Assembly: GCA_020852255.1 (NCBI GenBank)
Contig: JADZBD010000007.1
Location: 1-64,000, forward strand
DNA length: 64,000 bases
Direction of reading: 5' to 3'
Origin: Bacteroidia bacterium
GTDB taxonomy: Bacteria > Bacteroidota > Bacteroidia > JADZBD01
The position numbers and the translations under genes were made by a program. A model generated the notes under the pieces. The model did not search any database. It saw only the letters and a program-made list of their open reading frames with translations, and had not been told where the DNA came from. The number at the start of each line of letters is the position of its first letter. Position 1 is the stretch's first letter. Positions 51,142 through 51,619 of the stretch are shown here, piece by piece.

Positions 51142-51216
51142 GGTGGCCATAGCTCAGGTGGTTAGAGCATCAGATTGTGGTTCTGAGGGTCGTGGGTTCA
51201 AGTCCCATTGGCCACC
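51142..51216 (+). tRNA. tRNA-His (GTG)
   Basis: A complete cloverleaf. The acceptor strands GTGGCCA (51143-51149) and TGGCCAC (51209-51215) pair, with the extra G-1 at 51142 typical of tRNA-His. The D-arm is AGCTCAGGTGGTTAGAGC. The anticodon loop TTGTGGT gives GTG. The T-loop is TTCAAGT. CCA is not encoded. The 3' half from 51181 recurs at 51483, see the second-copy entry. Confidence 0.96.
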
Positions 51217-51228
51217 CTCCTTTTTCAG

Positions 51229-51507
51229 ATGTATTACGTTTATGCCATTGCCAGTTTACGGCGCGACTACATCTATGTGGGACTCACGGATCACGTAATC
51301 CGGCGTTTTACGCAACACAATCGCGGGTACGAACCAACCACATGTCATTACACACCTTACGTGTTAATTTATTCAGAGGAATTTTCCACCCGGGTATTAG
51401 CGCGTGCACGGGAGAAGCAGATGAAGCGCGCCTGGGGGAAGCAAAAATTAAGGAAAATCAGAGGTGCGTTCAAGGCATGGAGTTCTGAGGGTCTTGGGCC
51501 TGTCTGA
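51229..51507 (+). CDS. Small GIY-YIG nuclease fused in position to tRNA-His
   Basis: 92 aa from ATG at 51229 (the frame opens at 51208 inside the tRNA 3' end). It starts only 12 bases after the tRNA. The GIY-YIG core is YYVYAIAS and DYIYVG, with Arg in VIRRFTQHN and Glu in YSEEFST, all conserved catalytic positions. Its last residues (SSEGLGPV) are encoded by a second copy of the tRNA anticodon/variable/T-stem sequence, and the stop TGA (51505-51507) lies in a palindrome inserted there. It is of the single-domain URI/UPF0213 type; its substrate is unknown. It may be carried as a mobile unit. Confidence 0.9.
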   Translation: MYYVYAIASLRRDYIYVGLTDHVIRRFTQHNRGYEPTTCHYTPYVLIYSEEFSTRVLARAREKQMKRAWGKQKLRKIRGAFKAWSSEGLGPV

Positions 51508-51619
51508 CTGTCTGGCGACAGCCAGACAGGTAGATTCAAGTCCCATTGGCCACCCTCCTTTTTCAGATGTATGACGTTTATGCCATTGCCAGTTTACGGC
51601 GCGACTACATCTATGTGGG
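51483..51619 (+). pseudogene. Second copy: tRNA-His 3' half and truncated GIY-YIG start
   Basis: 51483-51498 repeats tRNA-His 51181-51196 with one change. The insert 51499-51534 follows, then 51535-51619 repeats 51197-51281 with a single mismatch in 85 bases. The repeat thus covers the tRNA from the anticodon stem to its end, the 12-base spacer and the first 53 bases of the nuclease gene. At 51620 it stops inside the codon run for YVG and joins unrelated sequence. It is a tandem second unit cut short. Confidence 0.9.
51499..51534. repeat. 36-bp palindromic insert in the duplicated tRNA T-arm
   Basis: The insert sits exactly where the T-stem meets the T-loop in the second tRNA copy. CTGTCTGGC (51508-51516) and GCCAGACAG (51521-51529) form a perfect 9-bp stem with loop GACA. 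CCTGTCTG at 51499-51506 can pair with CAGACAGG (51523-51530) as an alternative. It looks like a REP-type element and supplies the stop codon of the nuclease gene. Confidence 0.8.

Follow-up and report, generated by a model that had tools for sequence, protein, structure and literature searches.

Why should a complete tRNA-His gene be followed at once by a small nuclease gene, and that gene in turn by a second, interrupted tRNA copy running into the start of a second nuclease? For this arrangement, found in a 64,000-nucleotide stretch of a Bacteroidia genome (the window), an initial annotation had proposed a two-unit array of a small selfish or site-targeted module, joined through a tRNA 3' half. 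The reading that we favour, with a probability of roughly 0.7, is that the unit is a minimal mobile element nested in tRNA genes, with nuclease-driven break and repair as its likely mechanism.

The unit at the tRNA-His locus

The complete tRNA-His, the 92-residue GIY-YIG gene and the second tRNA copy leading into a second nuclease start were all confirmed, by ARAGORN, Pfam and repeat analysis, respectively (Table 1). The nuclease does adjoin the tRNA as annotated, although the gap to the ATG is 11 nt rather than 12. Two direct repeats locate the junction: one of 90 nt (97% identity; 51192-51281 and 51530-51619, offset 338) and one of 17 nt (51180-51196 and 51482-51498, offset 302), the offsets differing by exactly the 36-nt insert at 51499-51534. 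The insert lies between GGG (tRNA position 54) and TTC (position 55), that is, at the T-stem/T-loop border where the annotation had put it; it is not the simple palindrome described there, consisting instead of an outer stem with a nested hairpin and ending in unpaired TAGA. The duplication of the tRNA 3' half likewise held, with the amendment that the last 17 nt before the insert copy tRNA positions 38-54 and belong to the 3' end of the nuclease reading frame.

Table 1. Features of the unit in the window and related tRNA loci of the same genome (G000)
Feature	Location	Strand	Basis or content
tRNA-His (GTG), intact	51143-51217	+	ARAGORN
tRNA-His positions 1-54, belonging to the host and ending at the insertion point GGG^	51143-51196	+	Repeat offsets 302/338; homologous empty/filled tRNA-Ser site
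Unit left end: 21-bp copy of tRNA positions 55-75 (TTCAAGTCCCATTGGCCACCC), restoring a working tRNA	51197-51217	+	Identical 21-mer at 51535-51555
Spacer, 11 nt, tRNA to nuclease start	51218-51228	+	Sequence; repeated at 51556-51566
GIY-YIG nuclease gene (92 aa), the unit's only gene	51229-51507	+	PF01541, E=1.6e-13
Copy of tRNA positions 38-54 in 3' end of nuclease frame, joining the palindrome; candidate microhomology	51482-51498	+	17-nt repeat, 94%
Unit right end: 36-bp palindrome CCTGTCTGACTGTCTGGCGACAGCCAGACAGGTAGA	51499-51534	+	Same end recurs in displaced T-arms of other tRNAs
Displaced host tRNA 3' remnant, positions 55-75	51535-51555	+	Repeat; counterpart of remnant abutting the downstream gene in the G132/G319 pair
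Second, truncated unit: spacer and first 53 bp of second nuclease copy (ATG at 51567)	51556-51619	+	Offset-338 direct repeat ends at 51619
tRNA-Ala locus	G000		GIY-YIG gene and two degenerate copies with TCCCGCGTGAAACGCGGGA and CCCCGAGACATCGGGG
tRNA-Met locus	G000		Partial copy with TCCGCCGCGGCGGA upstream; truncated GIY-YIG frame downstream
tRNA-Ser locus	G000:C16, L009 1489-1636		Two tandem 5'-half copies upstream, with CTGTCTGGCGACAGTCAGACAG or a one-base variant of it in the D-arm; nuclease gene absent

The unit in the window measures 338 bp and is inserted in tRNA-His between T-stem and T-loop; unit lengths here and elsewhere were about 306-338 bp. A unit consists of a copy of the tRNA 3' end, a spacer, one GIY-YIG gene, a short tRNA stretch and the palindrome; the host 5' part of the tRNA and the left end of the unit together form a complete tRNA, and the host's own 3' end is displaced to the far side of the palindrome. 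The 21-bp tRNA 3'-end repeat stands at both ends of the insert (51197-51217 and 51535-51555), as it does at other T-arm insertions. The palindrome is the terminus of the inserted unit rather than something that landed there later by chance, and it interrupts the displaced copy of the tRNA while the working one stays whole; in both the window and a second genome (G132) the restored tRNA keeps its site intact. When the window locus was searched against Rfam, the tRNA, which is contiguous, was the only match, and no intron RNA was detected.

The predicted GIY-YIG fold class of the window protein is settled by its matches to Pfam and to PDB entries 1YWL and 1ZG2, the closest solved structures by sequence (E=2e-6 and 1e-4). 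A residue-pattern scan was carried out on an alignment of the window's nuclease family (A2), a six-sequence alignment (A1) being too diverse; the window nuclease keeps Y5, Y16, G18, R26, H30 and E62, the conserved active-site residues. Among closely related readable nuclease pairs from other loci, dN/dS was about 0.2-0.45 in most cases; a value near 1 for L107/L136 was set aside as unreliable and probably due to misalignment, and L110/L123 was unusable because dS was saturated. A tRNA-like stretch of about 6-38 nt recurs at the 3' end of the nuclease gene across loci.

Empty and filled sites

Comparison of empty and filled sites of the same tRNA had been suggested as a check, and such sites were found. 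In one genus (g22), the tRNA-Ser locus of G319 is empty and reads GCGGG, TTCGAATCCCGCCCTCTCCGC, ATGAATAGC, the tRNA being followed directly by ATGAATAGC. G132, of the same genus, carries a 311-bp insertion that starts with the TTCGAATCCCGCCCTCTCCGC 21-mer, continues with the spacer and the nuclease and ends in CCTGTCTACCGACAGGTAGA, and the displaced remnant abuts the same downstream gene as in G319. The tRNA-Ser insertion is base-precise, at GGG^TTC. Of the tRNA-Met loci fetched from a second genus (g82), seven lack the unit and four carry it in differing numbers. The counterpart of the window locus in G007 has the tRNA-His, the terminator and the same HTH gene, and the unit is absent; this comparison is looser, since a small HMBD gene is apparently missing there as well. 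G001, from the same family, was rejected as an empty-site control, its tRNA-His context being different. At the level of sequence, then, insertion is shown by unfilled orthologous sites in two genera and, less tightly, by the G007 counterpart of the tRNA-His locus.

Many relatives of the nuclease lie beside tRNA genes

When the window nuclease (P0001) was used as a query, relatives were found in 48 of 80 genomes. Sixty-nine relative loci were picked by protein score rather than context (29 top-scoring and 40 fetched by place), and in 30 of them a complete tRNA gene of the same strand lay no more than 500 bp away; the rough chance expectation, assuming about 45 tRNA genes per genome, is one or two of the 69. 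A scan of named genomes for family A2, by protein search alone, returned 40 loci, 35 with an intact tRNA, mostly tRNA-Leu, within about 500 bp. Four of the other five (L101, L104, L128 and L134) are at contig edges, which suggests that repeats break assemblies, and the remaining one, L124, has a palindrome-interrupted T-arm remnant. The A2 hosts are Flavobacteriaceae isolates, other Bacteroidia and five Patescibacteria; because cultured hosts carry units (Aequorivita viscosa, Altibacter lentus, Flavivirga and Salinimicrobium sediminis), the system is testable. The Patescibacteria, from several candidate phyla, have the A2 gene beside tRNA-Leu (L112, L120, L127, L132 and L133), suggesting horizontal spread or a binning error.

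The architecture was found in dozens of genomes, at genes for tRNA-His, Leu, Ser, Arg, Met, Asp, Ala, Val, Pro, Glu and Asn. This recurrence across genomes and tRNA loci, whose lack would have refuted the annotation's proposal, supports a selfish, site-targeted module, and the dozens of independent assemblies in which the layout appears dispose of an assembly artefact at a single locus. In a 3'-type layout, the intact tRNA is followed by the nuclease, and the displaced copy retains the tRNA 3' end, often with a copied terminator; in a 5'-type layout, the palindrome-bearing copy retains the tRNA 5' end and stands before the nuclease and the intact tRNA. The partial tRNA copies are broken by the palindrome at defined tRNA positions, in some lineages at the anticodon or D-arm; two palindrome-bearing copies (L001 and L055) are still called by ARAGORN. 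Tandem arrays have up to 10 units, repeated at an identical 457-bp period, and never more than one intact tRNA was present per array among those examined. The stricter rule that every array keeps one intact tRNA was weakened by L217, L218 and L220, which have none even in a wider stretch and which count against the element reading. The L217 array begins with a 5'-truncated tRNA-Met.

Searches for a phage or plasmid home gave no indication of one: P0001 had no match in phage records or PHROGs, and a viral contig scan, plasmid and phage tblastn, PHROGs and NCBIfam were all without a match for the nuclease.

Nuclease lineage, site and palindrome

To relate the nucleases to their surroundings, characters were mapped onto a tree of 71 rows and 99 columns in which many forks are open. 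Adjacency to a tRNA required 6 changes, against 23.7 after shuffling, and a supported clade of 31 nucleases had no tRNA adjacency at all; under this post hoc split, 33 of 40 rows outside the clade and 0 of 31 inside it were tRNA-adjacent (Fisher p=1e-13). The 7 of 40 outside rows that lack adjacency count against the element reading. Isotype required 16 changes (23.4 shuffled), and, with classes assigned by hand, palindrome class required 5 (10.2 shuffled; 0 of 500 shuffles as low) and insertion site 6 (10.1 shuffled). On this tree, nuclease lineage predicts tRNA adjacency, isotype, palindrome class and insertion site; vertical inheritance can be a part-cause of the clustering of isotype and palindrome.

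In the displaced T-arms of four kinds of tRNA (His, Ser, Leu and Met), GGG and TTC are separated by the 20-bp end CCTGTCTRCCGACAGGTAGA or a variant of it. In TCC-type lineages, the palindrome replaces about 10 nt, so that the insertion is not clean, which counts against the element reading. The Met-type palindromes covary, with 100% of cells paired, six two-sided changes and 0 of 500 shuffles as high, in a set of seven short sequences that were chosen as palindromes. In the window's genome (3.28 Mb), the window palindrome core (up to three mismatches) occurs three times, always in a partial tRNA copy beside an intact tRNA, while a reversed-pattern control had 0 matches in the same genome; its placement is thus not due to chance. 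Three further tRNA loci there have a related pattern (Ala, Met and Ser; Table 1), of which the tRNA-Ser copies are a non-autonomous form, and three nuclease lineages and three palindrome classes occur together in this one genome. Restriction of the palindrome to tRNA copies holds in that genome for the window sequence and fails as a general rule, a related palindrome being dispersed in G008 and G036.

Such dispersal bears on two alternatives. In the first, the palindrome itself is the real mobile unit and the GIY-YIG enzyme processes it, a functional parallel to RAYT/REP, with tRNA genes merely a favoured nest. We regard this as unlikely, though it would account for the tracking of nuclease lineage by palindrome class and for palindromes that lack a nuclease gene (tRNA-Ser, L009) or lie outside tRNAs. 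It would also suit the CCTGCCTG palindrome, which was present in 15 of 39 genomes with an A2-like nuclease (38%) and in 29 of 256 without one (11%; Fisher p=8e-5, phylogeny ignored); against it stand those same 29 genomes, which have the palindrome and, at the same cut-off, no A2-like nuclease. Some genes of the tRNA-free clade (L042, L052, L064 and L069) lie amid other palindromes, of ATTCCC..GGGAAT and CCTGAAACAAGTTCAGG types, hinting at a wider nuclease-palindrome link, for which this alternative has room. The L042-type palindromes were rejected as the same repeat, being a different, non-tRNA one.

The second alternative extends the plain tandem duplication followed by decay that the initial annotation had put forward: the tRNA 3' half and downstream gene would have been duplicated and have decayed, and a dispersed palindrome would have landed by chance in the spare copy. 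The units are indeed tandem and have tRNA halves in common, truncated copies occur, and CCTGCCTG is scattered through some genomes, with 107 copies in G008. As the whole story it is not supported: the G132/G319 pair shows that the unit entered at GGG^TTC and that the remnant borders directly on the downstream gene, the 20-bp end sits at one T-arm point in four kinds of tRNA, palindrome class and position follow the nuclease tree, and the window palindrome is confined to tRNA copies in its own genome. We consider this account very unlikely.

Proposed mechanism

For the tRNA-nested mobile element, we reasoned, from evidence that is comparative throughout, that the nuclease would be transcribed together with the tRNA and would cut or nick tRNA genes at a palindrome-marked site, and that repair of the break via short tRNA homology would insert or amplify the unit; the palindrome could either block re-cutting of displaced copies or be the DNA structure that the nuclease recognises. 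That the nuclease makes the break is the best mechanism we can infer, because SegB of phage T6, another GIY-YIG enzyme, is reported to prefer a T-loop motif and to drive tandem amplification of a tRNA segment. According to the SegB report (PMC13096335), the enzyme cuts within tRNA genes with a preference for RAWTSGAAC (reverse complement GTTCSAWTY, in the T-loop). Tandem amplification of tRNA-Tyr together with segB requires it, and the authors propose that the 5' region of the tRNA and the 3' region of segB recombine through microhomology. The tRNA-like stretch at the nuclease 3' end would be a suitable microhomology for a comparable step. A free-standing nuclease should also cut the restored tRNA beside which it is encoded, which counts against the element reading. 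The unit matches the resident isotype wherever it is placed, so simple copy-and-paste of a fixed sequence is not the whole mechanism.

Relation to known systems

SegB and the free-standing GIY-YIG homing endonucleases of T-even phages (PMC13096335; PMC2988022) resemble the present system in having a small GIY-YIG gene next to tRNA genes. The units described here differ in being chromosomal, in Bacteroidia and Patescibacteria, and in encoding about 90 residues, the catalytic domain only; they also lie inside a tRNA with its restoration, have a palindromic terminus and form arrays with at most one working tRNA, none of which is described for SegB in the available portion of that report (PMC13096335). 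As for homing endonucleases generally, both a GIY-YIG domain with active-site residues and orthologous alleles with and without the gene (G132/G319, the tRNA-Met series and window/G007) were seen. Group I introns with GIY-YIG homing endonucleases also place a nuclease gene inside a tRNA gene, but the tRNA here is restored by a duplicated end, not by splicing, and no Rfam intron was found at the window locus. The minimal domain lacking an extra DNA-binding module is shared with UPF0213/Slx1-like stand-alone proteins (PDB 1YWL, 1ZG2; PMC1564403); the two PDB entries are 'hypothetical' proteins, and the part of the cited account available describes no tRNA-nested element for them. REP/REPIN sequences with their RAYT proteins (PMC2817692, PMC3116915) likewise combine short palindromes with one small nucleic-acid enzyme whose lineage the palindrome class follows; the enzyme here is a GIY-YIG protein instead of a Y1 (HUH) tyrosine transposase of the IS200/IS605 kind, and is nested in tRNA genes with restoration.

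A similar layout is that of the tyrosine-integrase elements and genomic islands at tRNA 3' ends, in which a copy of the tRNA 3' end restores the gene and a direct repeat stands at both ends. A conventional element of this kind, its integrase lost or borrowed in trans, would have the 21-bp repeat as att core in a classic attL/attR layout, and a circular unit recombining at that core would yield exactly such a structure. We nevertheless judge this origin quite improbable: the units have no integrase gene, are only about 0.3 kb (310-340 bp) with a single nuclease gene and a palindromic end, form arrays of up to 10, enter the D-arm or anticodon in other lineages, and have an isotype and site that nuclease lineage predicts. 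Highly improbable is a tRNA-processing or toxin-antitoxin role, in which the nuclease would cut tRNA as RNA and the broken copies would be a decoy or type III-like antitoxin RNA; nuclease, terminator and tRNA-like repeats do adjoin and one palindrome set covaries in hairpin fashion, but the presence/absence polymorphism, the precision of insertion and the tandem arrays are in keeping with a DNA element, and GIY-YIG enzymes are known mainly as DNases.

A search of open-licence papers found no description of the palindrome, the tRNA restoration or such arrays, and the units are apparently an undescribed family of minimal mobile elements. They can be placed as a variant of the free-standing GIY-YIG nucleases associated with tRNA genes; that they form a separate class is a serious possibility. 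More tentatively, at somewhat less than even odds, we suggest that the units would make up a new class of autonomous element, about 0.3-0.45 kb long and composed of a stand-alone GIY-YIG gene and a cognate palindrome that is its recognised end. With neither transposase nor integrase, such an element would invade tRNA genes at points particular to its lineage, reconstitute the tRNA, grow into tandem arrays and spread across Bacteroidia and Patescibacteria. If the element reading is true, these units would rank with the smallest mobile elements that carry a gene, and would inhabit an essential gene class without breaking the tRNA; they would provide a function for part of the large, unassigned set of stand-alone GIY-YIG genes in Bacteroidia, explain broken, palindrome-bearing tRNA copies beside intact tRNAs, and provide a chromosomal setting for SegB-like nuclease-driven amplification.

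Other GIY-YIG loci

At L219 (3237-4100; G107:C10), with no tRNA nearby, a GIY-YIG gene appears to interrupt a transposase-like frame. At L053 (G008:C31), a GIY-YIG gene lies about 125 bp downstream of the tmRNA gene, on the same strand in the oriented locus.
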